A DNA stretch of 64,000 nt, taken from the IMG/VR virus record IMGVR_UViG_3300042562_001598, positions 153,149-217,148 of that record; one strand, written 5' to 3'. Within the stretch, counting starts at the first letter, position 1, and every line of letters begins with the position of its first letter. The position numbers were made by a program, and so were the translations under genes. The notes beneath the pieces are model-generated. The model was not told the DNA's origin, did no database searches, and worked only from the letters and a program-made list of their open reading frames with translations. Positions 2,036-43,449 of this stretch are shown piece after piece. The stretch comes from a virus.

Positions 2036-2461
2036 TTATTTTGTTTTGCCCCAGGTCTTACCTTTTCCTTTGTCTTTACACTTGGCAGGCGTTGGTCTAC
2101 AGGCCGGATATTTGCTCCTGGATTCACCTTCTTGTCTTCCGCAAGCTTTGTATCCACCTTTTCCATCTGGTGCGTTACAATCAACCCATCCGCCTTGTTT
2201 TCCTTTTGGTCCTTTTCTTTTGAACCATTGATGTAGTGATTCCTTTTCTGTTACTTCGGTTGATTCTTTAATATCCTTCCAAATATTTCCTTTTCTGCAT
2301 CTAACGATTGCTCCGGATTTATATGCCGATGGTTTATCGTATTTTCTATCCGCAATTCTTTGGCATCTATCTTTTTTCTTTTCTTCAAGGACTTCGGTCT
2401 CAATAAGAATTTGGTTGATTATTCTTATCAAATCTGATTCCGTTAATTTTATAACTTTCAT
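2036..2461 (-). CDS. leader-bearing basic cysteine-rich protein
   Basis: 141 residues beginning MKVIKLTESDLIRIINQIL, the shared leader, then KK-rich linkers. Near residues 33-60 is a module RCQRIADRKYD...RCRKGNIWK. A second module around residues 80-130 has LHQWFKRK, GGWVDCNAP, ACGRQEGE and PACRPTPAKC. The second module resembles a small domain of unknown function (DUF5872-like) seen in viral proteins; I recall this from memory and could not check it. The protein is very basic at its C-terminus. The late-type motif on the minus strand (2476-2484) lies directly upstream. Virion association is a guess. Confidence 0.75.
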   Translation of the reverse strand: MKVIKLTESDLIRIINQILIETEVLEEKKKDRCQRIADRKYDKPSAYKSGAIVRCRKGNIWKDIKESTEVTEKESLHQWFKRKGPKGKQGGWVDCNAPDGKGGYKACGRQEGESRSKYPACRPTPAKCKDKGKGKTWGKTK

Positions 2462-2490: not shown

Positions 2491-2694
2491 TTATCGTTTA
2501 AGCGACCCCCAAATTGAAAGATAAATGAACCTGGTTGATGTATCCCATAATGAAACATTGACTGATTTCCATAATGAACTATTAATAAATTCACCTGTTA
2601 AATCATGAACTGATGGGATAATTGATTCATATATACATGTTGAATTGCTTCTTGGTCCATTACCTAAAAACTTAACTGGTTTTCCTACTTTCAT
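2491..2694 (-). CDS. SVxx-family small protein, array member 21 (last)
   Basis: 67 residues. The start is MKVGKPVKF, a shortened form of the array's usual MKTKxxLGKSV. Only scattered SV/SL units remain (KSVNVSL, LSIWGSL), so this is one of the most diverged copies. Its ATG overlaps the stop of the upstream member by 4 nt (ATGA). Confidence 0.65.
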   Translation of the reverse strand: MKVGKPVKFLGNGPRSNSTCIYESIIPSVHDLTGEFINSSLWKSVNVSLWDTSTRFIYLSIWGSLKR

Positions 2695-2873
2695 AACTTG
2701 GATATTCTAACTAATCTAATGGAATTATTAACTTTATCTTTAATTTGTTCATAGATATAACCTTCAACGGGGTTATATGTTGATTCTGACACTGAATTAC
2801 CTATTGGGCTATGTAATGACCAAAATATGGATGAAAATAATTTTCTTCTAACGGATATAAGTTTTGTTTTCAT
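2691..2873 (-). CDS. SVxx-family small protein, array member 20
   Basis: 60 residues from MKTKLISVRRKL. The in-frame start 15 codons upstream is less likely because all members begin MKTK-like and overlap the previous stop by 4 nt. A few SV/SI units remain (NSVSESTYNPVEG). Confidence 0.65.
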   Translation of the reverse strand: MKTKLISVRRKLFSSIFWSLHSPIGNSVSESTYNPVEGYIYEQIKDKVNNSIRLVRISKL

Positions 2874-3064
2874 GATAAAGTTTTCATTGGTAATGTTATT
2901 TCTCTTAAATTTTCCCAAATTGAACTATTAAATAAGTCTTTTTTTTGTTGAATAACAAATAAATCTGCTGATTTTTTTAATAAAACATCTGTTGGAACAT
3001 GTAATGACCAATTAACCTTACCAATAAGTCTATTTGCGACTGATTTCCCCAACTTTGTTTTCAT
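2870..3064 (-). CDS. SVxx-family small protein, array member 19
   Basis: 64 residues, MKTKLGKSVANRLIG then a lysine-rich middle (LLKKSADLF) with few repeats. ATGA overlaps at both ends. Confidence 0.65.
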   Translation of the reverse strand: MKTKLGKSVANRLIGKVNWSLHVPTDVLLKKSADLFVIQQKKDLFNSSIWENLREITLPMKTLS

Positions 3065-3258
3065 AACACTATCACCCATCTTGTTAAATTATTAATTGGT
3101 CTCCACACTGAAACATTAACAAAACCCCACACTGAATTTTTTGGTGCCATATATACCTCCTCGTTAACAGAATCTAAAACTGAATTATAGACTGAATTAA
3201 CAATTACATTATTTATTTTATATCTAACTGGTTTCCCCAATTTTACCTTTGTTTTCAT
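3061..3258 (-). CDS. SVxx-family small protein, array member 18
   Basis: 65 residues. MKTKVKLGKPVRYKIN head, then NSVYNSVLDSVNEEVY, and a C-terminal tail NNLTRWVIVL that recurs in members 11 and 7. ATGA overlaps at both ends. Confidence 0.7.
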   Translation of the reverse strand: MKTKVKLGKPVRYKINNVIVNSVYNSVLDSVNEEVYMAPKNSVWGFVNVSVWRPINNLTRWVIVL

Positions 3259-3458
3259 AATAAAGTTTTCATTAGTTCATCTATTGGGTCATATATTGTT
3301 TCATAAACTAAATTCGTCCCAGACCAAAACACTGAATTAGTTATTGTTTCACTGACTGATTTATAAACCAACTTATCAACCGAATTAGTTATTGCAATAC
3401 ACAAAGAAATATTCAGTTTTTCATCAACAGGGTTCCCCAATTTTACCTTTGTTTTCAT
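3255..3458 (-). CDS. SVxx-family small protein, array member 17
   Basis: 67 residues from MKTKVKLGNPVDEKLN. The start at 3458 gives the usual 4-nt overlap with member 16; an upstream in-frame ATG exists. The SV/TV units (NSVDKLVYKSVSETITNSVF) are degenerate. Confidence 0.7.
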   Translation of the reverse strand: MKTKVKLGNPVDEKLNISLCIAITNSVDKLVYKSVSETITNSVFWSGTNLVYETIYDPIDELMKTLL

Positions 3459-3700
3459 AAATTTATTCTCCATCTTGTTGAAGTATGTAATGGTGTAATC
3501 ACCGAATTAACAACCAACTTATGAACTCCATTGCTAACTGATTCCCTAACAGAACTCCACACTGAATTAAACAATGAATTATTCACTGAATCATACACTG
3601 AACCATACACTGAATCACTCACTGAATCACTCACTGACCTACCCACTGACCTATTCACTTTAGTCTTAACTGACTTACCCAATTTAATCTTTGTTTTCAT
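3455..3700 (-). CDS. SVxx-family small protein, array member 16 (archetype)
   Basis: 81 residues and the clearest example of the family. After MKTKIKLGKSVKTKVN comes an almost perfect run of four-residue units, for example SVSDSVSDSVYGSVYDSV (residues about 23-40), then SVWSSVRESV. In DNA this is a 12-bp period. The tail STRWRINL recurs in member 12. No signal peptide or membrane segment. Function unknown. Confidence 0.8.
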   Translation of the reverse strand: MKTKIKLGKSVKTKVNRSVGRSVSDSVSDSVYGSVYDSVNNSLFNSVWSSVRESVSNGVHKLVVNSVITPLHTSTRWRINL

Positions 3701-3876
3701 AATATAATGTTTGTTAAACTTCTGATTGGAGAATACACTGAATCATCCACTAAGTTACTCACCGAAATATCCATTTCACTCCTAACTGGACAATACACTG
3801 ACCTACTCACTAAACTATACACTTTATCCTTAACCGATTTCCCCAATATAATCCTGGGGGATATTACTTCTTTCAT
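3697..3876 (-). CDS. SVxx-family small protein, array member 15
   Basis: 59 residues, read directly from the sequence. It starts MKEVISPRIILGKSV, an alternative head also seen in members 14 and 7, then VYSLVSRSVYCPV and DISVSNLVDDSVYSPI. Its stop overlaps the ATG of member 16 and its ATG overlaps the stop of member 14. Confidence 0.75.
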   Translation of the reverse strand: MKEVISPRIILGKSVKDKVYSLVSRSVYCPVRSEMDISVSNLVDDSVYSPIRSLTNIIL

Positions 3877-4133
3877 ATATTATTATTTATTGAAGTCCAA
3901 ACCAAACTATGAACTGACCTACCCACTGAACGATACACTGAAGACCTTACCAATCTCCTTACTGAATCATACACTGAAATATCTACTGAACTCCACACTA
4001 AATCATCTACTGTCCAAACCGTAGTATTAACCGACCCAATACTTGATTCCTTCACATAATTATGTAGATAAACTCTCACTTTATCACTAACTGATTTCCC
4101 CAAGACTAACTTGGGGGGTATTACTTCTTTCAT
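3873..4133 (-). CDS. SVxx-family small protein, array member 14
   Basis: 86 residues, the longest member. Head MKEVIPPKLVLGKSV. Repeats from about residue 40: SSVDISVYDSVRRLVRSSVY then RSVGRSVHSLV. ATGA overlaps both neighbours. Confidence 0.75.
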   Translation of the reverse strand: MKEVIPPKLVLGKSVSDKVRVYLHNYVKESSIGSVNTTVWTVDDLVWSSVDISVYDSVRRLVRSSVYRSVGRSVHSLVWTSINNNI

Positions 4134-4309
4134 ATTCTATTATTTATTGAATTAGTCACTGAACCACTTACTGAATTCCACACTGAACTTCTCACTGAAA
4201 GGTTTACTGAATTATCCAATGAATCATACACTAAACTCCACACTGAACCATACACTGAACCATACACTTTATCTATAACCGACTTCCCCAATTTTACCTT
4301 TGTTTTCAT
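4130..4309 (-). CDS. SVxx-family small protein, array member 13
   Basis: 59 residues from MKTKVKLGKSVIDKVY, then GSVYGSVWSLVYDSLDNSV and RSSVWNSVSGSV. The start at 4309 is chosen for the 4-nt overlap with member 12. Confidence 0.75.
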   Translation of the reverse strand: MKTKVKLGKSVIDKVYGSVYGSVWSLVYDSLDNSVNLSVRSSVWNSVSGSVTNSINNRI

Positions 4310-4455
4310 AAATTTATTCTCCATCTCATTGAAATATTAATTGAATCTCTCACTGAACTCCATACTGAATTAGTCACTGGAATACTCACTGAACTAACAA
4401 TTGTATTATTTATTTTATATCTAACAGGTTCCCCCAATTTTACCTTTGTTTTCAT
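4306..4455 (-). CDS. SVxx-family small protein, array member 12
   Basis: 49 residues, the shortest member. MKTKVKLGEPVRYKINN head nearly identical to member 18, then SSVSIPVTNSVWSSVRDSI, and tail RWRINL as in member 16. Confidence 0.7.
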   Translation of the reverse strand: MKTKVKLGEPVRYKINNTIVSSVSIPVTNSVWSSVRDSINISMRWRINL

Positions 4456-4628
4456 AATGCTATTACCCATCTTGTTAAATCATTAATTGGTTCCATTGTT
4501 AATTTATTTGTATCCCATATTGAATCCCAAGCGACATCCTTTAATGAATTATATGTTGAAAAATTTACTGATGTATGAACTGATTCATATATTTCACGCC
4601 TAACCGATTCCCCCAATTTTGCTTTCAT
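4452..4628 (-). CDS. SVxx-family small protein, array member 11
   Basis: 58 residues from MKAKLGESVRREIYESV; the tail NDLTRWVIAL matches member 18. The repeats are decayed in the middle (DVAWDSIWDTNKL). Confidence 0.65.
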   Translation of the reverse strand: MKAKLGESVRREIYESVHTSVNFSTYNSLKDVAWDSIWDTNKLTMEPINDLTRWVIAL

Positions 4629-4810
4629 AACTTTAATTTCCACGCTAATGATTCATCAATTGAACGCCTCACCGAACTTCTCACTGAACCCCTCAATGAA
4701 AGTTCCACTGTCTTATTCACAGGACTATATACTTCACTATATACTGAACCAAACAATGAATTATCCACTAAACTCCAAACTGACTTACCTAACTCTAACT
4801 TTGTTTTCAT
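4625..4810 (-). CDS. SVxx-family small protein, array member 10
   Basis: 61 residues: MKTKLELGKSVWSLVDNSL, then GSVYSEVYSPV and RGSVRSSVRRSI. Three nt separate it from member 9, one of only three junctions without an ATGA overlap. Confidence 0.7.
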   Translation of the reverse strand: MKTKLELGKSVWSLVDNSLFGSVYSEVYSPVNKTVELSLRGSVRSSVRRSIDESLAWKLKL

Positions 4811-4813
4811 AAT

Positions 4814-5011
4814 TTATTTATTTATTGAATTATTAATAGGTTCAACTATTAAATTTCTAATTGGAATCCAAACTAATCTCAAAACTGGACTCCACACTGA
4901 ACTATGTATTGAACTACTTACTGAACTACTTACTAAAATAGTCACTGAACTATTCACTGAATTATTAATTAATTCACTAACTGACTTACCTAACTCTATC
5001 TTTGTTTTCAT
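4814..5011 (-). CDS. SVxx-family small protein, array member 9
   Basis: 65 residues: MKTKIELGKSVSELINNSV, then SSVTILVSSSVSSSIHSSV. The tail turns hydrophobic (RLVWIPIRNLIVEPI). Confidence 0.75.
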   Translation of the reverse strand: MKTKIELGKSVSELINNSVNSSVTILVSSSVSSSIHSSVWSPVLRLVWIPIRNLIVEPINNSINK

Positions 5012-5205
5012 AATCTTATTCTTATTAAACGACTAATTGAAATATTCACTGAACTCTGTAATGAAGCCCACACTGAATCATTGATTAAACCAATTACTGA
5101 ACTAACCAATGAACTATCCACAGAATAATACACCGAATCCCACACTTTCATTGAATTATTTATGTCACCCTTAACATTTTTACCTAACTCTAACTTTGTT
5201 TTCAT
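5008..5205 (-). CDS. SVxx-family small protein, array member 8
   Basis: 65 residues from MKTKLELGKNVKGDINN, with DSVYYSVDSSLVSSV and DSVWASLQSSVNISI. The start at 5205 gives the 4-nt overlap with member 7. Confidence 0.75.
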   Translation of the reverse strand: MKTKLELGKNVKGDINNSMKVWDSVYYSVDSSLVSSVIGLINDSVWASLQSSVNISISRLIRIRL

Positions 5206-5387
5206 AATCTTACACTCCATCTTGTTAAATCATTAATTTGTCTCCAAGTTGAACGATATATTGAATTATATACTAGTTTTGATGTTGATTTCCTTATTGG
5301 ATAATGCACTGAATTCTTCACTAATTGATACACTGACTTACCAACTGATTTTCCTAATCTAACCTTGGGGGTTATAACTTCTCCCAT
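5202..5387 (-). CDS. SVxx-family small protein, array member 7
   Basis: 61 residues. MGEVITPKVRLGKSV head as in members 14 and 15; tail NDLTRWSVRL shared with members 11 and 18. The start overlaps the end of member 6 by about 16 nt. Confidence 0.7.
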   Translation of the reverse strand: MGEVITPKVRLGKSVGKSVYQLVKNSVHYPIRKSTSKLVYNSIYRSTWRQINDLTRWSVRL

Positions 5388-5611
5388 AATCTATTATTTA
5401 TTGAATTACAAATAGGATTATATACTGAACTCCGCACTGAAATATGCACTGAAACATACACTGAATTAGTCACTGATTCACTTACTAAACCGCTCACTGA
5501 ACCACACATAGAACTATACGCTGAACGACACACGGAATCATGTACTGAAATATCCACCGAACCCCTCACTTTAACCTTAACTGGTTTTCCTAATCTAATC
5601 TTTGTATTCAT
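5372..5611 (-). CDS. SVxx-family small protein, array member 6
   Basis: 79 residues: MNTKIRLGKPVKVKVRGSV, then long regular repeats such as GSVSGLVSESVTNSVYVSV and ISVRSSVYNPI. Two cysteines sit within repeat units. Confidence 0.75.
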   Translation of the reverse strand: MNTKIRLGKPVKVKVRGSVDISVHDSVCRSAYSSMCGSVSGLVSESVTNSVYVSVHISVRSSVYNPICNSINNRLWEKL

Positions 5612-5618
5612 ATTATAA

Positions 5619-5777
5619 TTAATTTTTAAGTTTTTCTATAGGGATACTCACTGAACGCCAAACTGAATTGTAGGGAAAGTTCCACACTGAATCATTGACC
5701 GAAATAACTATTGAAAGATATAATAACTCAATAATTTCATTCCGTTGCATTACCTTAATTGGTTTACCTAATTTCAT
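5619..5777 (-). CDS. SVxx-family small protein, array member 5
   Basis: 52 residues read directly: MKLGKPIKVMQRNEIIELL, then VISVNDSVWNFPYNSVW and RSVSIPIEKLKN. Repeats are few but the LGKP head and ATGA overlap with member 4 place it in the family. Confidence 0.65.
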   Translation of the reverse strand: MKLGKPIKVMQRNEIIELLYLSIVISVNDSVWNFPYNSVWRSVSIPIEKLKN

Positions 5778-5965
5778 AATCTATTTGTTATTGAATCAAC
5801 CACTAAACCCCACACTGACATAAAGACTAAATCCCTAACTAAATCTCTCACATTATTATTAGTTATATGATATGATTGACTCAACATATCATCACTCACT
5901 AAAATATCAACTGAGCTACATACTGACCTTCCAACTGATTTACCTAAAATAATATTTCTTTTCAT
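5774..5965 (-). CDS. SVxx-family small protein, array member 4
   Basis: 63 residues: MKRNIILGKSVGRSVCSSV, a divergent middle (DDMLSQSYHITNNN), then RDLVRDLVFMSVWGLV. Confidence 0.65.
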   Translation of the reverse strand: MKRNIILGKSVGRSVCSSVDILVSDDMLSQSYHITNNNVRDLVRDLVFMSVWGLVVDSITNRL

Positions 5966-6132
5966 AATTTAATCCTCCATATCATTAAATTATTAATTGG
6001 TGTTCTAATTGAATCCCAACCTTTATCTAAAAGATTAGTTGTACGAATAGTCATTGACCATTTCACAGAGTTACTTACCGAACTCTTAAATAAGTAACCA
6101 ATTGGTTTTCCTATTTCTATCTTTGTTTTCAT
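5962..6132 (-). CDS. SVxx-family small protein, array member 3
   Basis: 56 residues read directly: MKTKIEIGKPIGYLFKSSV, SNSVKWSM, tail NNLMIWRIKL. ATGA overlaps at both ends. Confidence 0.65.
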   Translation of the reverse strand: MKTKIEIGKPIGYLFKSSVSNSVKWSMTIRTTNLLDKGWDSIRTPINNLMIWRIKL

Positions 6133-6320
6133 ATACTTCTTCTTATTGAACGAGCCATTGAACTATCCACTGAATTTCTAACCGGGACACACACTGACTC
6201 ACTCACAAAGATATAAGATTGGTTATTAAACTTAAAGTATATCAGTTCCTCTGTTTTATCTTCAACCATCTTATATATAAATTTATTCACCTCATTCTTA
6301 AGTGATTTCCCTGTTTTCAT
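6129..6320 (-). CDS. SVxx-family small protein, array member 2
   Basis: 63 residues: MKTGKSLKNEVNKFIYK, an insert rich in charged and aromatic residues, then SESVCVPVRNSVDSSM. Head is shortened (lacks the IKL segment). Confidence 0.65.
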   Translation of the reverse strand: MKTGKSLKNEVNKFIYKMVEDKTEELIYFKFNNQSYIFVSESVCVPVRNSVDSSMARSIRRSI

Positions 6321-6523
6321 TCTAATAATCTATTTTTTATTGTTTCTATAATTGGTGACCAAGCTAACCATTGTACTAAATCATCCACCGAATCATAAAT
6401 TATATCATCAACTAAATTATAAACTGAATTATTCACCAATTTATCAATTGATGGATACATATTACCCCCAATATCCCATATTTCTTCACTAATTGGTTTC
6501 CCCAATTTTATCTTTGTTTTCAT
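6317..6523 (-). CDS. SVxx-family small protein, array member 1 (first)
   Basis: 68 residues: MKTKIKLGKPISEEIWD, then NNSVYNLVDDIIYDSVDDLV. The first gene of the 21-member run, 11 nt after the HD-domain gene, so probably in the same transcript. Confidence 0.7.
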   Translation of the reverse strand: MKTKIKLGKPISEEIWDIGGNMYPSIDKLVNNSVYNLVDDIIYDSVDDLVQWLAWSPIIETIKNRLLE

Positions 6524-6534: not shown

Positions 6535-7035
6535 TTAAAGGTGAGTGCCACCGCCATCCAATTTATTTGTAAAATCCATCAACTTACCAAAAGAAGGGTG
6601 CGAGGATACTGGTTCCTTTTTAACATCTTTCATTACTTCCCAGATTGATGGTTTAACTTTCATATGGTTTTGGACCAAGTATTTTATTTCATCAACATCT
6701 GTATTGTTGAATGAGGAAATCCAACCACTGAAATCTTCAACATATTTGGTTGATTTATTCTCATGACCATATGCTGTTGGTTGGCCGGTTTTCGGATTAA
6801 TTGCGTATGTATCTATTTTCCCAAGGTCGTGGAATAATGCTGACATAATCATATTTGGGTCACCAGGGAAATGATGGTATGCTCGTTTTACAACAACAAG
6901 AATATGTTTCAAGGTATTTCCCTCCGGATGCCAATTTGGATTTTGTTTCGCATTCCATTGACTAAAGAATAATTTCTGTAATTCCTTGGGTGCTGACTTA
7001 ATTAATGATTTTGGTGTTCCTGGTATTGTATTCAT
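6535..7035 (-). CDS. HD-domain phosphohydrolase
   Basis: 166 residues from MNTIPGTPKSLIK. It carries an HD signature: HPEGNTLKHIL, then the metal-binding ALFHDLGK, and further histidines in YGHENKSTKYV and LVQNHMKVK. HD proteins hydrolyse phosphate esters of nucleotides or RNA ends; the substrate here is unknown. The ATG at 7035 is chosen because a host-type promoter lies at 7057-7064, which would place longer starts outside the transcript. The gene leads into the SVxx array on the same strand. Confidence 0.8.
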   Translation of the reverse strand: MNTIPGTPKSLIKSAPKELQKLFFSQWNAKQNPNWHPEGNTLKHILVVVKRAYHHFPGDPNMIMSALFHDLGKIDTYAINPKTGQPTAYGHENKSTKYVEDFSGWISSFNNTDVDEIKYLVQNHMKVKPSIWEVMKDVKKEPVSSHPSFGKLMDFTNKLDGGGTHL

Positions 7036-7056
7036 AATTCGTTCTTTTGATTGGAA

Positions 7057-7324: not shown

Positions 7325-7540
7325 ATGCCGAAAACTAGGTTAATTATCGGAAAATCAATGAGTGAGGAGTTAATATCTCACATATCTTCAGGTTTTGCTC
7401 AATCCGAACATGAAACAATCCGAACCAATGCTAACGATGTAATTTGGGATAACATAATTGATTCTGTTTGGGCTGCAACAGATTTTGAGGTTGGCGAGTT
7501 AATTTGGAATACATTTAATGTTAAATTATCTTTATCATGA
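7325..7540 (+). CDS. SVxx-family relative, plus strand
   Basis: 71 residues starting MPKTRLIIGKSMSEEL, comparable to the array heads MKTKIKLGKSVSEEI. Repeat units are decayed (DNIIDSVWAATDF). It lies opposite the array across the HD gene and overlaps the next gene by ATGA, keeping the array's coupling style. Confidence 0.7.
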   Translation: MPKTRLIIGKSMSEELISHISSGFAQSEHETIRTNANDVIWDNIIDSVWAATDFEVGELIWNTFNVKLSLS

Positions 7541-7743
7541 AATTAGGAAAACATGTTTTAGTTCCCAGTTTAACTTATAAACTCCGGGAACCAACTTACA
7601 CAAAGATTAAAGACAGCGTGGATATATTAATTATAATTTCAACTGAACGGAAAGTCAGAAATATTATTTTTGATTTTGTGTCAAATTCGGTAACCACACC
7701 CATTAAAGTTAATGTTAAAAACAATTATTTTAGGTATTTATAG
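7537..7743 (+). CDS. SVxx-family relative, plus strand
   Basis: 68 residues starting MKLGKHVLVPSLTYKL, with DSVDILI and SNSVTTPI remnants. The assignment rests on the LGK head and position rather than repeats. Ends 2 nt before the first SVGG-repeat gene. Confidence 0.6.
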   Translation: MKLGKHVLVPSLTYKLREPTYTKIKDSVDILIIISTERKVRNIIFDFVSNSVTTPIKVNVKNNYFRYL

Positions 7744-7745
7744 TT

Positions 7746-8306
7746 ATGAAAATTATTATCACAGAAAATCAATATGAGTTATTGAAAGATAAACCAAAAG
7801 TTTATAACTTTCCATCTTTGGATATATTTGGACATGAAAAACCAATAGATAATTGGAATTTGATGCAAAAGTTTTTAGATAAAAAGGGTAATCCTGATTT
7901 TACCATTGATGGTAATTTGGATTTAAGGGATGCACCAATTGAATCATTAGGAAATTTAACTTCGGTTGGGGGGCATTTGGATTTATGTTTTACTCAAATT
8001 GAATCATTAGGAAATTTAACTTCGGTTGGGGGTTATTTAAATTTAAGATACACACCAATTAAATCATTGGAAAATCTAACATCAGTTGGGGGTACTTTGT
8101 TTTTAACAAATTCATCAATTGAATCATTGGGAAATCTAACTTCAGTTGGGGGTACTTTGAGTTTAGAAGGAACACCAATTAAATCACTAGGAAATCTAAC
8201 TTCAGTTGGGGGTAGTTTATTTTTAAGAAAAACTCCAATATCCGAAAAATACACTGAAGAAGAAATAAGAAGTCAAGTTAAAGTTGAAGGAGATATATAC
8301 TTATGA
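7746..8306 (+). CDS. SVGG-repeat solenoid protein 1 (186 aa)
   Basis: Leader MKIIITENQYELLK, a conserved 40-residue segment (FPSLDIFGHEKPIDNWNLMQ) and then five full 20-residue units of the type LxLxxTPIESLGNLTSVGG. It ends in a constant cap ISEKYTEEEIRSQV. The pattern resembles short leucine-rich or beta-solenoid repeats found in Bacteroidetes and their phages. It overlaps the next paralog by ATGA. The function is unknown; such surfaces usually bind protein or glycan. Confidence 0.8.
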   Translation: MKIIITENQYELLKDKPKVYNFPSLDIFGHEKPIDNWNLMQKFLDKKGNPDFTIDGNLDLRDAPIESLGNLTSVGGHLDLCFTQIESLGNLTSVGGYLNLRYTPIKSLENLTSVGGTLFLTNSSIESLGNLTSVGGTLSLEGTPIKSLGNLTSVGGSLFLRKTPISEKYTEEEIRSQVKVEGDIYL

Positions 8307-8932
8307 AAATAATAATAACAGAAAATCAATACGAATTATTGAAAGAAATGGAAGATAAACCAAAGGTTTATCACTTCCCTTCATTGGATATATTTGGACA
8401 TGAAAAACCAATAGATAATTGGAATTTGATGCAAAAGTTTTTAACTAAAAAAGGTAACCCTGATTTTACTATCACAGGTGATTTGGATTTAAGTGACACC
8501 CTCATTGAATCATTGGGAAATCTAATTTCGGTTGGGGGTACTTTGTATTTAATGGGAACACAAATTAAATCATTGGGAAAACTAACTTCAGTTGGGGGTG
8601 GTTTGTTTTTAGAGTATTCATCAATTGAATCATTGGGAAATCTAACAACAGTTGGGGGTGCTTTGAGTTTAGAAGGAACACCAATTAAATCATTGGGAAA
8701 TCTTAAATCGGTTGGGGGTAGTTTGTATTTAAAAAGTTCACCAATTAAATCATTGGGAGAACTAACATCAGTTGGGGGTAATATATATTTAACTGATACA
8801 TCAATTAAATCATTGGGAAATCTAACTTCGGTTGGTGGTAGTTTGTTTTTAAGAAGAACACCAATATCAAAAAATTACACTGAAGAAGAAATAAGAAGTC
8901 AAGTTAACGTTGAAGGAAAAATATACTTATGA
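8303..8932 (+). CDS. SVGG-repeat solenoid protein 2 (209 aa)
   Basis: Same layout as the preceding paralog, with six full repeat units. The leader reads MKIIITENQYELLKEMED. Variation falls mainly in the two or three residues after each LxL, while SLGNLTSVGG is constant at both protein and DNA level. Confidence 0.8.
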   Translation: MKIIITENQYELLKEMEDKPKVYHFPSLDIFGHEKPIDNWNLMQKFLTKKGNPDFTITGDLDLSDTLIESLGNLISVGGTLYLMGTQIKSLGKLTSVGGGLFLEYSSIESLGNLTTVGGALSLEGTPIKSLGNLKSVGGSLYLKSSPIKSLGELTSVGGNIYLTDTSIKSLGNLTSVGGSLFLRRTPISKNYTEEEIRSQVNVEGKIYL

Positions 8933-9558
8933 AAATAATAATTACAGAAAATCAATATGAGTTATTGAAAGAAACCAAAGATAAACCAAAAGTTTATAAC
9001 TTTCCATCGTTGGATATATTTGGTTATGAAAAACCAATAGACAATTGGAATTTGATGCAAAAGTTTTTAGCTAAAAAAGGTAATCCTGATTTTACCATTG
9101 ATGGTAATTTGGATTTAAGTGATACTCTAATTGAATCATTAGGAAATTTAACTTCGGTTGGGAATAATTTGTATTTATCATACACACCAATTAAATCATT
9201 AGGAAATCTAACTTCAGTTGGGGGTGATTTGAGTTTAGGAGGAACACCAATTAAATCATTGGGAAATCTTAAATCGGTTGGTGGTTATTTGGATTTAAGA
9301 GATACATCAATCGAATCATTGGGAAATCTAACTTCGGTTGGGGGTACTTTGCATTTAAATGAAACGCAAATTGAATCACTGGGAAATCTAACAACAGTTG
9401 GTGGTAATTTGGATTTAGAAGATACAACAATTGAATCGTTTGAAAATCTTACTTCGGTTGGTGGTAGTTTGTTTTTAAGAAGAACACCAATATCCGAAAA
9501 ATACACTGAAGAAGAAATAAGAAGTCAAGTTAAAGTTGAAGGAAAAATATACTTATGA
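8929..9558 (+). CDS. SVGG-repeat solenoid protein 3 (209 aa)
   Basis: Six full repeat units after the leader and the DNWNLMQKF segment. One unit has SVGNN in place of SVGG and one reads IESFENLTSVGG. ATGA overlaps with both neighbours show tight translational coupling. Confidence 0.8.
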   Translation: MKIIITENQYELLKETKDKPKVYNFPSLDIFGYEKPIDNWNLMQKFLAKKGNPDFTIDGNLDLSDTLIESLGNLTSVGNNLYLSYTPIKSLGNLTSVGGDLSLGGTPIKSLGNLKSVGGYLDLRDTSIESLGNLTSVGGTLHLNETQIESLGNLTTVGGNLDLEDTTIESFENLTSVGGSLFLRRTPISEKYTEEEIRSQVKVEGKIYL

Positions 9559-10175
9559 AAATTATTATCACAGAAAATCAATACGAATTATTGAAAGATA
9601 AACCAAAAGTTTATCACTTCCCTTCATTGGATATATTTGGTCATAAAAAACCTATAGATAATTGGAATTTGATGCAAAAGTTTTTAGATAAAAAAGGAAA
9701 CCCAGATTTTACTATCACAGGTGATTTGGATTTAAGTGACACCCCCATTGAATCATTGGGAAATCTAATTTCGGTTGGTGATAATTTGTATTTATCATAC
9801 ACACCAATTAAATCATTAGGAAATCTTACTTCGGTTGGGGGTGGTTTGGATTTAAGAAATACACCAATTGAATCATTGGGAAATCTAACTTCGGTGGGAG
9901 GTAATTTGTATTTAACATACTCAAAAATTGAATCATTGGGTAATCTTACTTCGGTTGGGGGCGATTTGGATTTAGATGATACACCGATTAAATCAATAGC
10001 TAATCTAACTTCAGTTGGGGGTAGTTTGTTTTTATATAATACACCAATTGAATCATTAGGAAAACTAAAATCGGTTGGGGGTAGTTTGTTTTTATATAAT
10101 ACACCAATATCCGAAAAATACACAAAAGAAGAAATAAAAAGTCAGGTTAAAGTTGAAGGAGGTCTATACTTATGA
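9555..10175 (+). CDS. SVGG-repeat solenoid protein 4 (206 aa)
   Basis: Six units; the last two share LFLYNTPI, which suggests a recent within-gene duplication of a 60-bp unit. The cap reads ISEKYTKEEIKSQVKV. It overlaps the next gene, which has the same leader but a different body. Confidence 0.8.
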   Translation: MKIIITENQYELLKDKPKVYHFPSLDIFGHKKPIDNWNLMQKFLDKKGNPDFTITGDLDLSDTPIESLGNLISVGDNLYLSYTPIKSLGNLTSVGGGLDLRNTPIESLGNLTSVGGNLYLTYSKIESLGNLTSVGGDLDLDDTPIKSIANLTSVGGSLFLYNTPIESLGKLKSVGGSLFLYNTPISEKYTKEEIKSQVKVEGGLYL

Positions 10176-10835: not shown

Positions 10836-11330
10836 ATGAACGCAAAACTTAACGAAAAGCTAAAAAAGTTAGTAGAGGAAAAAGGTTATAGAGAAGCTTG
10901 TGAATTGATATCACTAAAGATGTATGATTTGGCAACATTAACTGACTTAAAAATAGAAGGTGAATTTGCTCAAGGTATATTATTTGATTTATTGGATGAT
11001 AATAAAATTCCAACCACTTATGAGGATTTCAACATTAAAACAAGAGATATTGAAGATATAATAATATGGGAAAATGATTCTGTTGCCGCGGAGGCAATGC
11101 CATTTTATAAACCCAACCAATTAAATGTTTGGATGTTTATCTATACCAATGAAAATGACGATGAGAAATATTTCCATGGTGAAATTCCGAACTCTTATAT
11201 AATGTCAAAGTGTAAAGGTAGTTTTGATAATCTTGAAGAATTTATTACTTGGATTAAAGATTATTATTACCCAACATCAGCAAAAATGATTGCAGAATTA
11301 ATATCATTAAATAATGATTCAACAAAATAA
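10836..11330 (+). CDS. tandem paralog A1, hypothetical
   Basis: 164 residues, first of three consecutive paralogs. Shared features are an N-terminal helix (KLNEKLKKLVEEKGY), the motif MYDLATL near residue 30, a central LPTTYxDF-like segment and a C-terminal LEEFITWIKDYYYPT. Acidic, no membrane segment. Function unknown. Confidence 0.8.
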   Translation: MNAKLNEKLKKLVEEKGYREACELISLKMYDLATLTDLKIEGEFAQGILFDLLDDNKIPTTYEDFNIKTRDIEDIIIWENDSVAAEAMPFYKPNQLNVWMFIYTNENDDEKYFHGEIPNSYIMSKCKGSFDNLEEFITWIKDYYYPTSAKMIAELISLNNDSTK

Positions 11331-11337
11331 CTAAAGT

Positions 11338-11829
11338 ATGACCCCAAAAGCAAAAGAAAAAATACAACAATTGGTTGATAAAATAGGATTTCATAGGACA
11401 TGTGAAAATTTACATATGAAATCATATGATTTAGTTAGACTATTTGGTGTGAAGATTAATAACTCAGAAGTATGTAATAATTTAGTATTTGATTTATATA
11501 CAGATTCTCTTTTACCAACAACATATAAAGAATTTACCCTTTATATTGATGATGAAGGTATTTTATCTTGGATTTCCACAGATGCCGAAGTTTGGGCAAC
11601 ACCTTATTGGAATTGTGAAAATGAACTACCAATAGATATAGTTCATTATAAACGCTATAATGAAGATAATATAGATTACGAATACTTATCAGATAATTTT
11701 AAGTTAAAACCGGAGTTTACCGATATTACAGAGTTCATTCAATATCTTAAAGATTTTACATATCCAGAGACATATAAAAAAATTCACAGGTTAATAGATA
11801 GAATTGAAGAATATGAAAATAATTTATAA
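11338..11829 (+). CDS. tandem paralog A2, hypothetical
   Basis: 163 residues, second paralog: MTPKAKEKIQQLVDKIGF, SYDLVRLFGVKINN, LPTTYKEFTLYIDD and a C-terminal FIQYLKDFTYPETYKKI. It lies 7 nt after paralog A1 and 12 nt before A3. Confidence 0.8.
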   Translation: MTPKAKEKIQQLVDKIGFHRTCENLHMKSYDLVRLFGVKINNSEVCNNLVFDLYTDSLLPTTYKEFTLYIDDEGILSWISTDAEVWATPYWNCENELPIDIVHYKRYNEDNIDYEYLSDNFKLKPEFTDITEFIQYLKDFTYPETYKKIHRLIDRIEEYENNL

Positions 11830-11841
11830 AATAACCACAGG

Positions 11842-12327
11842 ATGAACCCAAAAGCAAAAGAAAAAATATTAAAATTAATAGAAAGAGAAGGATTTGATGG
11901 AGTTCTTGATAGCCTACAACTAAAAGCGTATGACTTAGTTGAAAAGTTTGACCTTGAAATTAATAATCCTGATATGTGTTGGACTTTAATTTATGATTTA
12001 TATAAAGATAATAAATTACCCAGTCAATATAAAGAATTTACTATTGAACTTGATAATGATGGTTTTTTAGGTTGGGAGGATGTTTCAACGAATACTCTTT
12101 TTTACGCAACACCTTTCTGGGATGCTGAAAGTAATTTACCTATAAATATAGTAACTCATAAAGAATATGATGAAAGAGACTTACCGGATGAATTAAGGTA
12201 TATTTATATTCAAATACCTTATGAATTTAATAATCTTGAAGAATTTATTACTTGGTTAAGAGATTTTTATTATCCAACAACTTATAAAGTAATTAAAGAT
12301 ATAACTAATAGAATTGACCAAGCATGA
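11842..12327 (+). CDS. tandem paralog A3, hypothetical
   Basis: 161 residues: MNPKAKEKILKLIEREGF, AYDLVEKFDLEINN, LPSQYKEFTIELDN, and LEEFITWLRDFYYPTTYKVI. Closest to A2 over most of its length. Its stop overlaps the ATG of the next gene. Confidence 0.8.
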   Translation: MNPKAKEKILKLIEREGFDGVLDSLQLKAYDLVEKFDLEINNPDMCWTLIYDLYKDNKLPSQYKEFTIELDNDGFLGWEDVSTNTLFYATPFWDAESNLPINIVTHKEYDERDLPDELRYIYIQIPYEFNNLEEFITWLRDFYYPTTYKVIKDITNRIDQA

Positions 12328-12716
12328 AAATAATAATTACAGAGAATAAATTATATAACTCAATATACAACTATATTGATAAATTTTACGATACATCTAA
12401 AATAGGTCAATTCAACCCAACAACTGATGACGAAATTGGGAATTGGGGTGATAAGGAAAATCCGTATATTACAGAGTTTTATTACTATATATTTGATGGA
12501 GATTATGATGAAAACGGGGTAGCGTTTTTATATATTCAAAAAGAATATTATGACGAGAAACACTCAAATATGTCATTTATAAATCAATCACCAATATTAA
12601 TTGTTAATAATTATGGCGATTTTACAGAAATGTTTAGTGATTATTGGAAAGAACCAATGAAACAATGGTTTTGGGATAAATATAAACTACCGGTTAAAAC
12701 GATAGTTGCTGATTAA
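12324..12716 (+). CDS. leader-bearing hypothetical protein (130 aa)
   Basis: MKIIITENKLYNSIYNYID leader, then an acidic, tyrosine-rich body with three strands' worth of alternating residues (YITEFYYYIFDGDYDENG). Overlaps paralog A3 by 4 nt, tying the leader genes to the same operon. Confidence 0.75.
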   Translation: MKIIITENKLYNSIYNYIDKFYDTSKIGQFNPTTDDEIGNWGDKENPYITEFYYYIFDGDYDENGVAFLYIQKEYYDEKHSNMSFINQSPILIVNNYGDFTEMFSDYWKEPMKQWFWDKYKLPVKTIVAD

Positions 12717-12727
12717 TAAAATAAAAT

Positions 12728-13108
12728 ATGAAAATAATAATCACAGAAAATAAGCTAAACACCTCATTTGAGAAAATGCTTAATAGGGAATTGAAACACC
12801 TAAAAGAATATAAGGAATCCGACGATTTTGACGAAGAAAGTCTCCCAGATAATATTTCTTGGGATACAATGAATTGGATTGAATATGTTGATAAAATTGA
12901 GGTTGTTCAAGTTGATAAAGAAACTAACCCAAATCCAGAATTTAGTTCTTTTAATGTTCTAATTAATGTTTATACAAGTTATTTAACTAATTTTGATGTT
13001 GAAAGTATTATTTCAGACCTTGAAGATAATATTAACGAAACTTTACAATATAATGTAAGTTTAATTGAAAACGATGTAATAAATAACGGAACAACAACTG
13101 AATGGTAA
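12728..13108 (+). CDS. leader-bearing hypothetical protein (126 aa)
   Basis: MKIIITENKLNTSFEKMLN le ader then an acidic body, for example YKESDDFDEESLPDN at about residues 30-44. The C-terminal half looks beta-rich (VLINVYTSYL). No family recognised. Confidence 0.75.
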   Translation: MKIIITENKLNTSFEKMLNRELKHLKEYKESDDFDEESLPDNISWDTMNWIEYVDKIEVVQVDKETNPNPEFSSFNVLINVYTSYLTNFDVESIISDLEDNINETLQYNVSLIENDVINNGTTTEW

Positions 13109-13109
13109 T

Positions 13110-13559
13110 ATGAAAATAATAATTACAGAAAATCAATATACATTATTGAAAGAAATGGAAGATAACCCAAAAGTTTATAACTTCCCATCATTGGATGTTT
13201 TCGGTAACGAAGAACCAATAGATAATTGGAATTTGATGCAAAGTTTTTTAGAGAAAAAAGGTAACCCAGATTTTTCTATTAGTGGTAATTTGGATTTAAG
13301 AGATACACCAATTGAATCACTAGGAAATCTTACTTCGGTTGGGGGTTATTTAAATCTATATGGTACACCAATTGAATCATTAGGTAATCTAACTTCAGTT
13401 GGGGGTAGTTTGATTTTATCACGAACACCAATTGAATCATTGGAAAATCTAACTTCGGTTGGGGGGTTTTTAATTTTACGAAATACACCAATATCAGAAA
13501 AATACACAGAAAAAGAAATAAGAAGTCAGGTTGAAGTTAAAGGAAATATACACTTATGA
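13110..13559 (+). CDS. SVGG-repeat solenoid protein 5 (149 aa)
   Basis: A shorter paralog of the 7746-10175 proteins with only three full 20-residue units, same leader, DNWNLMQSFL segment and ISEKYTEKEIRSQ cap. It is separated from the other four by 2.9 kb of unrelated genes, so it dispersed or the cluster was interrupted. Confidence 0.8.
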   Translation: MKIIITENQYTLLKEMEDNPKVYNFPSLDVFGNEEPIDNWNLMQSFLEKKGNPDFSISGNLDLRDTPIESLGNLTSVGGYLNLYGTPIESLGNLTSVGGSLILSRTPIESLENLTSVGGFLILRNTPISEKYTEKEIRSQVEVKGNIHL

Positions 13560-14083
13560 GAATAATAATTACAGAAAATCAAAGAACCCAAATGTTAAAT
13601 AAAATTTGGGACAAATTAAAAGCAAACGGAAAACAACCAACACTAAACCGTGAGGTTCTAAACTCTTTAGGTTTTAATACTTGGGATTCCGAACCAAGAT
13701 TTGCATTAACACATTACCTTGGCGGTTATGATAAAGTAAAGGAAGATGCTAAAAATTTAGTATTAGGAAAAACCTTTAATACCGATGACTATGATGGAAC
13801 TGGTAGTTATAGTTTTACTTTTACAGTTGAAGATGTATGGGAAGAAAATGAAGAAGAACAAGCAATCCAATTTATAGTAAAATTTGGTAACGGAACTGTT
13901 GATTGGTATGATGAAGATGGTGAAGAAATTGGTCCAACAGATATTTTAGATGCTTATTCACAAGCGGATATGACTGAAAGTTGGGAATTTAAGTCTGAAA
14001 TACAAGATGTTATTAAAATGATTTTAGAACAAGAAGTAACCAACAAAACCGGAATTGATGTTGAAGTTGAATTATTATGGTAA
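13556..14083 (+). CDS. leader-bearing hypothetical protein (175 aa)
   Basis: MRIIITENQRTQMLNKIWDK leader followed by a body containing LNSLGFNTWDSEPRF and VEDVWEENEEEQAIQF, the latter beta-rich. Overlaps the SVGG gene by 4 nt. Ends the plus-strand operon at a bidirectional terminator. Confidence 0.75.
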   Translation: MRIIITENQRTQMLNKIWDKLKANGKQPTLNREVLNSLGFNTWDSEPRFALTHYLGGYDKVKEDAKNLVLGKTFNTDDYDGTGSYSFTFTVEDVWEENEEEQAIQFIVKFGNGTVDWYDEDGEEIGPTDILDAYSQADMTESWEFKSEIQDVIKMILEQEVTNKTGIDVEVELLW

Positions 14084-41034: not shown

Positions 41035-41119
41035 GGAGAATTGGCAGAGCGGTCGAATGCGGCAGTCTTGAAAACTGTTGTACTGAAAGGTACCGGGGGT
41101 TCGAATCCCTCATTCTCCG
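41035..41119 (+). tRNA. tRNA-Ser(UGA)
   Basis: Acceptor GGAGAAT/ATTCTCC, anticodon loop CTTGAAA, long variable arm typical of serine, T-loop TTCGAAT. G73 and an encoded CCA (GCCA) follow. Confidence 0.93.
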
Positions 41120-41128
41120 CCATAGTAT

Positions 41129-41200
41129 TGGATTATAGTGTATCGGTTCGCACATAACTCTTTGAAAGTTATAGGTCAAGTTCGACTCTTGATAATCCAA
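41129..41200 (+). tRNA. tRNA-Gln(UUG)
   Basis: Acceptor TGGATTA/TAATCCA, which starts with U as usual for glutamine; anticodon loop CTTTGAA, T-loop TTCGACT. CCA not encoded. Confidence 0.9.
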
Positions 41201-41210
41201 CAAAATAATA

Positions 41211-41282
41211 CGGGGTGTATTCTCGGAGTGAGAAACCTGCCTTGGACGCAGGAAGCGGAAAGTGCGACTCTTTTCACCCCGA
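41211..41282 (+). tRNA. tRNA-Pro(UGG)
   Basis: Acceptor CGGGGTG/CACCCCG as in bacterial proline tRNAs; anticodon loop CTTGGAC. T-arm is weak (AAAGTGCGACTCTTTT). Confidence 0.85.
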
Positions 41283-41289
41283 CGGAGTG

Positions 41290-41350
41290 GACTGTTACTA
41301 ATTCATAGACTTGGCCTCAAGTGCATAGAATTAGAATTTCAGTCTGACTG
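41290..41350 (+). other. structured spacer hairpin between tRNA-Pro and tRNA-Lys
   Basis: GGACTG pairs with CAGTCT around an inner hairpin (ACTTG-GCCT-CAAGT extended by TAATTC/GAATTA). Not tRNA-like. Could be a processing signal. Confidence 0.5.
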
Positions 41351-41356
41351 ATAATT

Positions 41357-41427
41357 ACCCCCAAGGCTTTAAAGTGAAGCACGATACTTTTAATATCGGG
41401 AAGAAGGAGCATTACCTTCTGGGGGTA
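41357..41427 (+). tRNA. tRNA-Lys(UUU), noncanonical elbow
   Basis: Acceptor ACCCCCA/TGGGGGT, D-stem GCTT/AAGC, anticodon stem CGATA/TATCG with loop CTTTTAA, T-stem GAAGG/CCTTC. The T-loop is AGCATTA instead of TTCGANN, and the D-loop (TAAAGTG) lacks the GG pair. Confidence 0.85.
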
Positions 41428-41434
41428 CAAGTGT

Positions 41435-41486
41435 TTTGGTTTAGAGATTATTCCGGGTATTGGCTTTAATAATACGAAAACTCTAA
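41435..41486 (+). other. structured spacer between tRNA-Lys and tRNA-Tyr
   Basis: TTAGAG/CTCTAA encloses ATTATT/AATAAT. No coding potential or tRNA features. Confidence 0.4.
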
Positions 41487-41488
41487 TT

Positions 41489-41569
41489 GGGTCGCAAAAG
41501 TCGTTCGGATACGGCAGCTTGACTGTAAATCAAGTCCTCACGGGAGTGGTTCGAGTCCACTGTTATCCA
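41489..41569 (+). tRNA. tRNA-Tyr(GUA)
   Basis: Anticodon stem CTTGA/TCAAG with loop CTGTAAA, long variable arm, T-loop TTCGAGT, D-loop with GG. The acceptor GGGTCGC/GTTATCC has wobble pairs and one mismatch, so the 5' boundary is less certain. Confidence 0.75.
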
Positions 41570-41625
41570 CTTTAGTTTATAGGTCGTACTGTCCTTGGGT
41601 TCTATAAAAATCCTAAAAAAGGTAA

Positions 41626-41698
41626 GGGTCTTTGGTATAGCTGGTGCGTACGTTAGTCTGAAGAACTAAAGGAACAGGTTCGATTCCTGTAGGACCCA
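41626..41698 (+). tRNA. tRNA-Phe(GAA)
   Basis: Acceptor GGGTCTT/AGGACCC, D-loop with GG, anticodon loop CTGAAGA, T-loop TTCGATT. Confidence 0.92.
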
Positions 41699-41702
41699 CA
41701 AA

Positions 41703-41840
41703 CAAGGTGACGCTACAGTCGTAAGATTCCGGAATCGAGAAGACAAAGAGCCTAAGTGTAAAGATGAGCTCCTACAGCCTTGGACTACTATTAAGGAATG
41801 ATACGAGCCTCCAAAGTTCGAAAGGAGTCAGGTAGTAGTC
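41703..41840 (+). ncRNA. two abutting closed RNA structures, unassigned
   Basis: 41703-41782 is closed by CAAGG/CCTTG and 41783-41840 by GACTACTA/TAGTAGTC. The second contains a T-arm-like hairpin (CTCC-AAAGTTCGAA-AGGAG). Neither folds as a normal tRNA. Confidence 0.45.
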
Positions 41841-41847
41841 AAAAATT

Positions 41848-41919
41848 GGACTTGTAGCTCAGTAGGAGAGCATTCGCCTGTTAAGCGAAGGGTCGGGATG
41901 GCAGAATTCCCCAAGTCCG
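41848..41919 (+). tRNA. tRNA-Asn(GUU)
   Basis: Acceptor GGACTTG/CAAGTCC, D-arm GCTC/GAGC with GG in the loop, anticodon stem TTCGC/GCGAA with loop CTGTTAA. The T-loop region (GGGAT-GGCAGAA-TTCCC) is noncanonical. Confidence 0.88.
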
Positions 41920-41943
41920 CGGAGTCCTGATATAACAGGAAAC

Positions 41944-41989
41944 CCCCACTCCCATATGGCAGCCGGTCCGTTAAGCCGGTGAAGTGGGG
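41944..41989 (+). ncRNA. short tRNA-like structure lacking a T-arm
   Basis: CCCCACT/AGTGGGG closes a 46-nt element whose inner hairpin CCGGT-CCGTTAA-GCCGG looks like an anticodon arm. There is no room for a T-arm. Confidence 0.45.
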
Positions 41990-41996
41990 TAATATG

Positions 41997-42067
41997 GTGT
42001 TTCTAGCTTAATTGGTAAAGTGCTACACTGTGAATGTAGAGAACAGGGTTCGAAACCCGGAAACACA
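41997..42067 (+). tRNA. tRNA-His(GUG)
   Basis: Acceptor GTGTTTC/GAAACAC preceded by a G that could be G-1, anticodon stem CTACA/TGTAG with loop CTGTGAA, T-loop TTCGAAA, D-loop with GG. Confidence 0.9.
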
Positions 42068-42136
42068 CAAAAGGAACAGAATAATACCTGGACAGTCTTC
42101 AAGGAGACAGGGTAAAGTTTGGACAGCTCCTTAATT

Positions 42137-42207
42137 ACACAATACAGGCAAGGTGTCGGTCAAGTCTCCAAAACTTAGGCGGGTAAGTTCGATTCTTACA
42201 TTGTGTG
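42137..42207 (+). tRNA. tRNA-Trp(CCA)
   Basis: Acceptor ACACAAT/ATTGTGT, anticodon loop CTCCAAA, T-arm GTAAG-TTCGATT-CTTAC, discriminator G. Confidence 0.88.
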
Positions 42208-42244
42208 CAAAAAAGAAATGTTTAATTATTAATTATTAATTATT

Positions 42245-42751
42245 GTGAGTAAGTACCAGAAAACATTAGTTTTAGATTCCAGTTTTACCGCTAGAAGTAT
42301 CATAACCACGGAGAGAGCTTTTGCTATTCATTATAAGGGAAACGCTGACGTAATAAAAGAACACCCAGAAACATTTGGTTTAGTTAATCCAGACTTAAAG
42401 ATTAAAAAACCATCAGTTATCAAAGTTTATAAATTTGTTAACCAAAACATCCAAAAAGTACCATTAAATAGAGACAATGTTTATCGTAGAGATAATCATC
42501 AGTGTGTTTATTGTGGATGTAATAATAGAAAGACCTTAACTTTAGACCATGTTTTACCCCAATCTAAGGGAGGAAAAGACACCTGGGACAACTTGGTTAC
42601 CTGTTGTCTGAGATGTAACCGTGAGAAGTCTGATTTGACCCTGGAGGAGTATGGTAAAGAAATACCCCAACCTAAACGACCCCACTTTTTAATGTTAATG
42701 AAACAATTGATGTATATTCCGGATGAGTGGAAACCTTATTTATTTTTTTAG
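42245..42751 (+). CDS. HNH endonuclease inserted in the tRNA array
   Basis: 168 residues from a GTG start. The HNH fold is clear: CVYCGCNNRKTLTLDHVLPQ, SKGGKDTWDNLV and CCLRCNREKSD, with two CxxC zinc pairs and the catalytic LDHV histidine. The N-terminal 80 residues (TLVLDSSFTARSIITTERAF) are typical of a free-standing HNH family in phages. Its place among tRNAs fits a mobile (homing) nuclease. No ATG alternative in frame. Confidence 0.9.
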   Translation: MSKYQKTLVLDSSFTARSIITTERAFAIHYKGNADVIKEHPETFGLVNPDLKIKKPSVIKVYKFVNQNIQKVPLNRDNVYRRDNHQCVYCGCNNRKTLTLDHVLPQSKGGKDTWDNLVTCCLRCNREKSDLTLEEYGKEIPQPKRPHFLMLMKQLMYIPDEWKPYLFF

Positions 42752-42783
42752 TATAAAATGTTTGGTGGATTGTAAAAAAGGTG

Positions 42784-42791
42784 TATCTTTG
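42784..42791 (+). promoter_or_regulatory. host-type promoter
   Basis: TATCTTTG with TTG about 19 bp upstream, before the ATG at 42814. Confidence 0.7.
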
Positions 42792-42813
42792 TAAAAATAA
42801 AAAGGTAGAAACT

Positions 42814-43050
42814 ATGGAACCAATAAAACAATTATTTTCAGATTTAAGTGATGAAGAATTAATCTTAACAATTAAAGAGATTAAAGAATCGGATGTGACT
42901 GGATTATTTCCTGAAAACACAAATGTTAGAGCTTTATGTCAGGAATTGACTAAAATCACCAAGATGGATGTATCGTCACATTTATTGATGGTTAAAATCA
43001 ATATTCTTAAAGAAGGGTCTTACAGATGGTTAAAAACAATTGAACAATAA
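42814..43050 (+). CDS. hypothetical helical protein (78 aa)
   Basis: MEPIKQLFSDLSDEELILTI then helices to RWLKTIEQ. The start is set by the promoter at 42784. Overlaps or abuts the next gene. Confidence 0.7.
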   Translation: MEPIKQLFSDLSDEELILTIKEIKESDVTGLFPENTNVRALCQELTKITKMDVSSHLLMVKINILKEGSYRWLKTIEQ

Positions 43051-43063
43051 AAACATAGAAATC

Positions 43064-43390: not shown

Positions 43391-43420
43391 AATAAGTTTG
43401 GTATTAATAAAAAATTGATT

Positions 43421-43428: not shown

Positions 43429-43449
43429 CTAACACAAAACAGATAAACT

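Follow-up and report, generated by a model that had tools for sequence, protein, structure and literature searches.

The 64,000-nucleotide stretch analysed here (the window) corresponds to positions 153149-217148 of a 282,192-base virus record (IMG/VR record IMGVR_UViG_3300042562_001598) and carries at 2491-6523, on the minus strand, an array of 21 consecutive small genes whose products contain SVxx tetrapeptide repeats. This array would belong to a module that recurs in phages and combines a DUF6745-like protein and a small companion with tandem, translationally coupled mini-genes. We tentatively propose, with a probability of about 0.4, that the mini-proteins, together with DUF6745, serve as tunable interaction modules against defence by the host or a prophage, counter-defence being their most likely use by analogy with gp54 of mycobacteriophage Tweety. 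Throughout, G-numbers designate virus records (G000 being the genome of the window) and L-numbers designate loci.

All 21 genes (49-86 codons, Table 1) were intact in an open reading frame (ORF) check with starts placed at the conserved MKTK-type ATG, and 17 of the 20 junctions were then exact 4-nt ATGA overlaps, as an earlier note on this DNA had described. The three others were a gap of 3 nt (4810/4814), an overlap of 16 nt (5387/5372) and a gap of 7 nt (5611/5619). SVxx repeats were present as reported; the start MKTKxxLGK(S/P)V, ascribed at that time to nearly all copies, was less general, since about five members displayed it exactly and about 11 nearly so. Three members had MKEVI or MGEV starts and most others retained some [LIVT]GK[SPN][VIL] form. 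The description of the array was correct and also incomplete, because the genome contains three arrays of this kind, plus two divergent relatives on the plus strand (7325-7743). A protein search located the other two arrays at about 133.8-137.4 kb (plus strand) and about 148.2-150.8 kb (minus strand), bringing the total to about 52 genes. Tail sheath, terminase, portal and major head proteins are encoded in the record, which is thus that of a large tailed phage; from these families we take it to be T4-like.

The minus strand was identified as the coding one by its V codons, whose variation in that frame was maximal at the third position and minimal at the second. Two long plus-strand ORFs (3531-3707 and 3707-4024, with LTExxTE repeats) are the reverse complement of SVxx and spurious, and are likely to be mis-annotated as genes. 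For the LGKSV anchor of 44 alignable members, 56 synonymous and 18 non-synonymous single-base changes from the commonest codon were counted, i.e. a non-synonymous to synonymous ratio (N/S) of 0.133 per opportunity; within the repeat, this ratio was 0.10 for the V slot and 0.70 for the S slot. SV codons varied by phage (TCAGTG, TCTGTA, TCTGTT) and the amino acids were unchanged. Tag and V are under purifying selection and the repeats are therefore not decaying non-coding DNA. The selected coding genes postulated in the earlier note were thus borne out, and the opposite outcome that it had named (equal synonymous and non-synonymous change, with decay) is not what the data show.

Two kinds of variation were seen, changes at the two x residues and changes in entire 12-bp units. 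The x residues, rich in Y, W, S, N, D, R and G, varied chiefly at codon positions 1 and 2, that is at unit positions 7, 8, 10 and 11, G and T positions included. In MNNS-type arrays, Arg at x1 was encoded by AGG in 31 of 42 cases (5% in flanking genes) and Gly at x1 by GGG in 35 of 39 (at most 17% in flanking genes), an excess as expected from recent replacement changes from TGG. Against composition shuffles, aliphatic residues of the window array recurred at lag 4 (z = +14.7) and lag 8 (z = +13.2), all remaining lags up to 8 being negative. A pentapeptide-repeat protein was ruled out by lag 5 (z = -10.4, versus +24.9 at lag 4) and by the lack of a Pfam match; likewise, a canonical heptad coiled coil was rejected since lags 3 and 7 were depleted, despite one predicted long helix.

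The shuffling suggested earlier was supported. An identical block of at least 56 nt was common to genes of arrays A and B, about 14 kb apart, at differing offsets; most of the blocks that array genes have in common were displaced by multiples of 12; and similarity of 5' ends did not predict that of 3' ends among members (Mantel r 0.095, p 0.13), a result that saturation would also give. Comparison across phages also revealed the predicted variability of the proteins, including a change in unit number between near-identical records: G007 and G060, from different samples, displayed 2 point differences in about 8.8 kb, yet +36 and +12 bp in two neighbouring SVxx genes, i.e. three and one tetrads. 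This change was seen only in that related array, no near-identical relative of the window genome having been found.

Junction-pattern scans retrieved about 25 other array-bearing IMG/VR records. A generic SVxx DNA pattern gave mostly unrelated simple repeats (SVSV, GVSV), which were reused as control records. In the window genome, a DUF6745 gene above the Pfam cut-off was found at 122 kb and the small companion at 123.4 kb. A full-length DUF6745-like protein was encoded in 17 of the 25 other array records as well as in the window record (18/26), versus 0/37 controls (p 6e-10), where weak partial matches occurred in four; since 8 rows of the DUF6745-like model were drawn from array records, about ten of the matches are independent. 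The Pfam model alone detected DUF6745 in 15/26 array records, a figure that is too low because several array-neighbouring homologues fall below its threshold. The companion was matched in 19 of the 25 other records (two of them weakly), and the array often lay within about 1 kb of the DUF6745-like gene, on the same strand, with the companion nearby. The reverse search, starting from DUF6745-like proteins, uncovered SVxx mini-genes at 16 of 48 readable loci and other tandem arrays at six more.

At seven viral loci, SVxx occurred inside DUF6745 itself, and separate arrays were found at none of them. Viral members of the family (PF20530) such as L018 and L070 carry identical internal SVxx tetrads, whereas the DUF6745-like protein of array phages is devoid of this segment, which there forms separate genes; the array proteins match no Pfam family, the DUF6745 model included. 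Since SVxx is fused to DUF6745 in some viruses and separate in others, the two probably act together. At L070 (4848-6278, minus strand), a PADLOC 'type II nicking endonuclease' profile matched the SVxx segment alone (E 1e-9), reflecting either low complexity or the presence of SVxx in a restriction enzyme family as well.

Outside the window genome, start tags were diverse (GKSVKDKV, MNIEKEI, MNNSxIxKAV, MTLKDSV, MSIEDK and others) and the coupling mode differed, with 11-nt overlaps at L001 and L107 instead of the 4-nt overlaps of the window array. Sister arrays in DUF6745-like loci were built on NVxx (L270, L272), QVxx (L263, L283) and AVxx/EVxx (L282). In the 368-kb record G073, DUF6745 and the companion were followed by about 84 tandem ORFs of about 60 amino acids starting with M-x-[LI]-G-[KNE], the motif by which they were chosen. 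They displayed 39 exact 4-nt overlaps and shared only this MKLGK-type start, 8 of 3570 body pairs being similar at E<0.01. The start-motif rate reached 33/73 candidate ORFs at L238 versus a background of 7/169 in the window genome (p 5e-14). A period-4 recurrence of aliphatic residues was observed in all array types, weak but clear in G073 (lag 4 z 6.8), with no enrichment at lags 3 and 7; the common unit is thus a tag followed by a period-4 body, SVxx being one form of it. When 84,980 cellular genomes were scanned with one codon form, 9 matches were obtained, none recognised as a real SVxx array, and the exact MKTK-start DNA pattern had no match outside the window's own genome.

Member 16, modelled with 48 relatives, was predicted as a single long helix (residues 9-80) at a predicted local distance difference test score (pLDDT) of 88, whereas the SVxx segment inside DUF6745 was modelled at pLDDT <50 between flanking domains that fold well; these two results allow no firm structural conclusion. 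Foldseek comparison of the DUF6745 model with PDB gave no fold match. The array proteins gave nothing reliable against Pfam, PHROGs, NCBIfam and PADLOC profiles (a PADLOC 'REase_II' match was rejected as probably low-complexity), no match to PDB by sequence, and no BLAST match among isolated phages, where the low-complexity filter masks repeats.

Tweety gp54 (homologues Che8 gp57 and PMC gp51) is an AAxx tetrapeptide-repeat protein (PMC2884959, PMC9262239). As in the arrays, its unit is of 12 bp and four residues, two fixed and two variable, and varies at codon positions 1 and 2, which its authors read as selection for variation (PMC2884959). Unit number likewise differs between phages and GG-type codons for W and G occur at the third residue. 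Mutants of gp54 that escape the prophage Phrann gp29/gp30 defence have altered AAxx repeat numbers (PMC9262239), so that the anti-defence role proposed in the earlier note has gained a functional analogue, though no direct evidence. Yet gp54 is one long protein built on AA, not SV, with unique N- and C-terminal regions flanking the repeat, whereas the window contains tandem coupled mini-genes whose products consist of a short tag and a short tail only. The fused DUF6745 form does share the gp54-type layout, the repeat lying between N- and C-terminal regions. A further group of phage proteins starting with 'MCKFFSFV...' (L029, L096, L103; no Pfam family) displayed the same SVxx tetrads with a W-rich third residue, but as single genes with SVxx internal between unrelated N- and C-terminal regions. 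In the proteins of L029, L096, L103, L121 and L091, the N-termini are unrelated and the SVxx segment is followed by a common C-terminal region (...NPFQxxxDLWExGLVPSFDGKxWRLHxG...). As far as the description cited in PMC2884959 goes, VR2 of bbp36 from Bordetella phage BMP-1 is also composed of short in-frame repeats in variable number, not essential for growth; its unit, of 24 bp, lies in a single gene and has another sequence.

In each mini-protein, a short N-terminal tag that depends on the lineage ([M]xxLGK[SP]V in the window array) precedes a body carrying an aliphatic residue at every fourth position, with variable residues in between (as SVxx in this array). The tag may dock the mini-proteins on a common partner, probably the DUF6745-like protein, and the tetrad body could act as a tunable interaction surface or spacer. 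Many co-translated versions, re-tuned by gain or loss of 12-bp units and by shuffling between copies, would provide a repertoire with which to meet host or prophage counterparts as these change. The Tweety precedent and the neighbourhood of the arrays, with three C5 methyltransferase genes within 116.9-131 kb of the genome, are compatible with counter-defence, and counter-defence modules are favoured for this reason, with near-neutral expansion as the main rival. Several points weigh against this preference. In the window genome, about 11 kb separate the DUF6745-like gene from the array closest to it and 33 kb from the window array, and the 37 control records are not a random sample. The mutual exclusion of fused and separate forms reaches just p 0.011 (p 0.079 for SV arrays alone), with no correction for phylogeny. 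Repeat-number differences in metagenome assemblies, G007/G060 included, can be repeat-collapse artefacts, and strong codon preference together with recent unit amplification, not selection for variety, could explain part of the codon-position bias. Tweety gp54 does not belong to DUF6745 and matches no Pfam family, which makes the link one of design resemblance and not of membership. Pfam and PADLOC profile searches found no known anti-defence domain, and we infer, rather than observe, the functions of the array members, DUF6745 and the companion.

Repeat-driven expansion with little function is the rival that survives best, and is itself rather unlikely. The 12-bp units would multiply by slippage and unequal recombination, selection would do no more than keep the products soluble and harmless, and the coupled mini-genes would be a by-product. 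Units inside the arrays of L104 and L112 are indeed codon-frozen, with third positions almost unchanged, and GTG represents 57% of the V codons in SV versus 9% genome-wide in G000; both indicate that amplification has outrun codon equilibration. Between G007 and G060, units were gained faster than point mutations arose, and the window phage contains other ATGA-overlapping tandem paralogs (7746-10175). Such expansion accounts poorly, however, for purifying selection on tag and V, for a start-stop coupling maintained differently by lineage, for the same period-4 design with other dipeptides in DUF6745-like loci and for some 84 G073 members that are intact without SVxx repeats.

Less probable is a multi-subunit structure, in which the DUF6745-like protein would organise co-translated, specialised subunits into a helical bundle, a filament or an intracellular compartment. 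Translational coupling would be apt for stoichiometric complexes, the constant tag and period-4 core suggest packing, and an isolated member was predicted as one long helix; on the other hand, copy number ranges from 1 to about 84 across related modules, many x residues are freely replaced, the repeat is poorly modelled within DUF6745, and the negative lags 3 and 7 are contrary to a canonical heptad coiled coil. Defence by the phage itself (superinfection exclusion), with the DUF6745-like protein as effector and the variable mini-proteins as sensors of competing phages, is more doubtful still. A module-like association and a diversifying repertoire would fit such an immune-like role as well as counter-defence, but PADLOC matches were confined to low-complexity ones, no toxic or enzymatic domain was recognised and DUF6745 has no fold match in PDB. 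It is very unlikely that the arrays encode variable proteins of the surface or for receptor binding, or that they are the variable region of a diversity-generating retroelement, a phage mechanism that also gives amino-acid variety at set positions. The residues that vary resemble those of binding surfaces, but no tail or fibre domain was recognised and the arrays lie away from the tail genes identified so far; a retroelement target was ruled out, as the 282-kb record contained no match to the reverse transcriptase RVT_1 (control genomes were positive) and the variation was not adenine-limited. The 'surface binder' and 'toxin-like' roles of the earlier note are without support. A non-coding function of the DNA (recombination hotspot or repeat element), which its 12-bp repetition and antisense ORFs might evoke, is hardly credible given the reading frame, starts, overlaps and amino-acid-level conservation with N/S <1, and SV residues that persist under different codons.

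The HD-domain gene upstream of the array is probably co-transcribed with it; as the two flanking genes lie 11 nt before the first member and 29 nt after the last, HD-domain gene, array and DUF5872 gene may form one operon. Promoter and terminator scans gave no more than chance expectation. The N-terminus of the DUF5872 protein, MKVIKLTESDLIRIINQILIE, resembles those of other proteins of the same phage starting with LTE or ITE, and is possibly a targeting or processing signal common to them. Another HD protein (HD_4, PF13328; L205, 438-908, plus strand), presumably alarmone-hydrolase-like, is encoded in record G064, 5 kb upstream of its SVxx array. Among the C5 methyltransferases of G000, the one at L011 1196-3124 (G000 129195-131123) is split by an intein-like Hint/LAGLIDADG insert; the other two are at 116.9 and 126.6 kb. 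The plus strand of the window further contains four ATGA-coupled, tandem leucine-rich-repeat-like paralogs (7746-10175; N-terminus MKIIITENQYELLK, 'SLGNLTSVGG' repeats), a paralog family of similar style; more tandem short paralogs (10836-14083; MxPKAKEKIxxLV...), the first without Pfam match; and a cluster of 13 predicted tRNA genes (41035-48601), one with an unreadable anticodon.

Table 1. Members of the window array and adjacent genes, in window coordinates.
Feature	Coordinates	Strand	Remarks
DUF5872 protein	2036..2461	-	PF19197, E 2e-7; 29 nt downstream of last member
Array member 21	2491..2694	-	most divergent; MKVGKPV start
Array member 20	2691..2873	-	MKTK start; ATGA overlap; long ORF 2691-2918 has a spurious TTG start
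Array member 19	2870..3064	-	ATGA overlap
Array member 18	3061..3258	-	MKTKVKLGKPV; ATGA overlap
Array member 17	3255..3458	-	ATGA overlap
Array member 16	3455..3700	-	most regular SVxx
Array member 15	3697..3876	-	MKEVI start; ATGA overlap
Array member 14	3873..4133	-	MKEVI start; segment VRVYLHxYV..GSVNTTV in common with one array B gene
Array member 13	4130..4309	-	ATGA overlap
Array member 12	4306..4455	-	ATGA overlap
Array member 11	4452..4628	-	ATGA overlap
Array member 10	4625..4810	-	3-nt gap to member 9
Array member 9	4814..5011	-	ATGA overlap with member 8
Array member 8	5008..5205	-	ATGA overlap
Array member 7	5202..5387	-	MGEVITP start; 16-nt overlap with member 6
Array member 6	5372..5611	-	7-nt gap to member 5
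Array member 5	5619..5777	-	ATGA overlap with member 4
Array member 4	5774..5965	-	ATGA overlap
Array member 3	5962..6132	-	ATGA overlap
Array member 2	6129..6320	-	MKTGKSL start; little SVxx; ATGA overlap
Array member 1	6317..6523	-	translated first
HD-domain protein	6535..7038	-	PF01966, E 6e-4, just under curated cut-off; 11 nt upstream of member 1
Divergent LGK-type short ORF	7325..7540	+	...LIIGKSMSEEL...; opposite strand to array
Second divergent LGK-type short ORF	7537..7743	+	MKLGKHV...; ATGA-coupled to 7325..7540 ORF

Fast-evolving phage repeat proteins were previously known as single genes (Tweety gp54), and only the Tweety work was found when the open-licence literature was searched for phage tetrapeptide repeats, DUF6745 and jumbo-phage tandem paralogs, so that the module appears undescribed so far. 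New here is the repeat in the form of stand-alone tandem mini-genes, about 52 in the window genome and about 84 in the 368-kb G073, linked in many uncultured phages to a single pair of uncharacterised genes. A broader reading is possible, though we hold it with less confidence than the counter-defence use itself: a widespread, undescribed module would associate a constant DUF6745-like protein and its companion with an expandable library of tag-bearing, co-translated mini-proteins, in whose bodies four-residue units (SVxx, NVxx, QVxx, AVxx or freely diverged) are gained, lost and shuffled, as a protein-level repertoire against the defences of hosts or rivals. Direct tests are within reach, since SVxx exists in fused and separate forms and phage pairs occur that differ in little but repeat number. 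If true, this would be a phage-encoded protein repertoire system and a first handle on DUF6745, categorically new if its function were shown.

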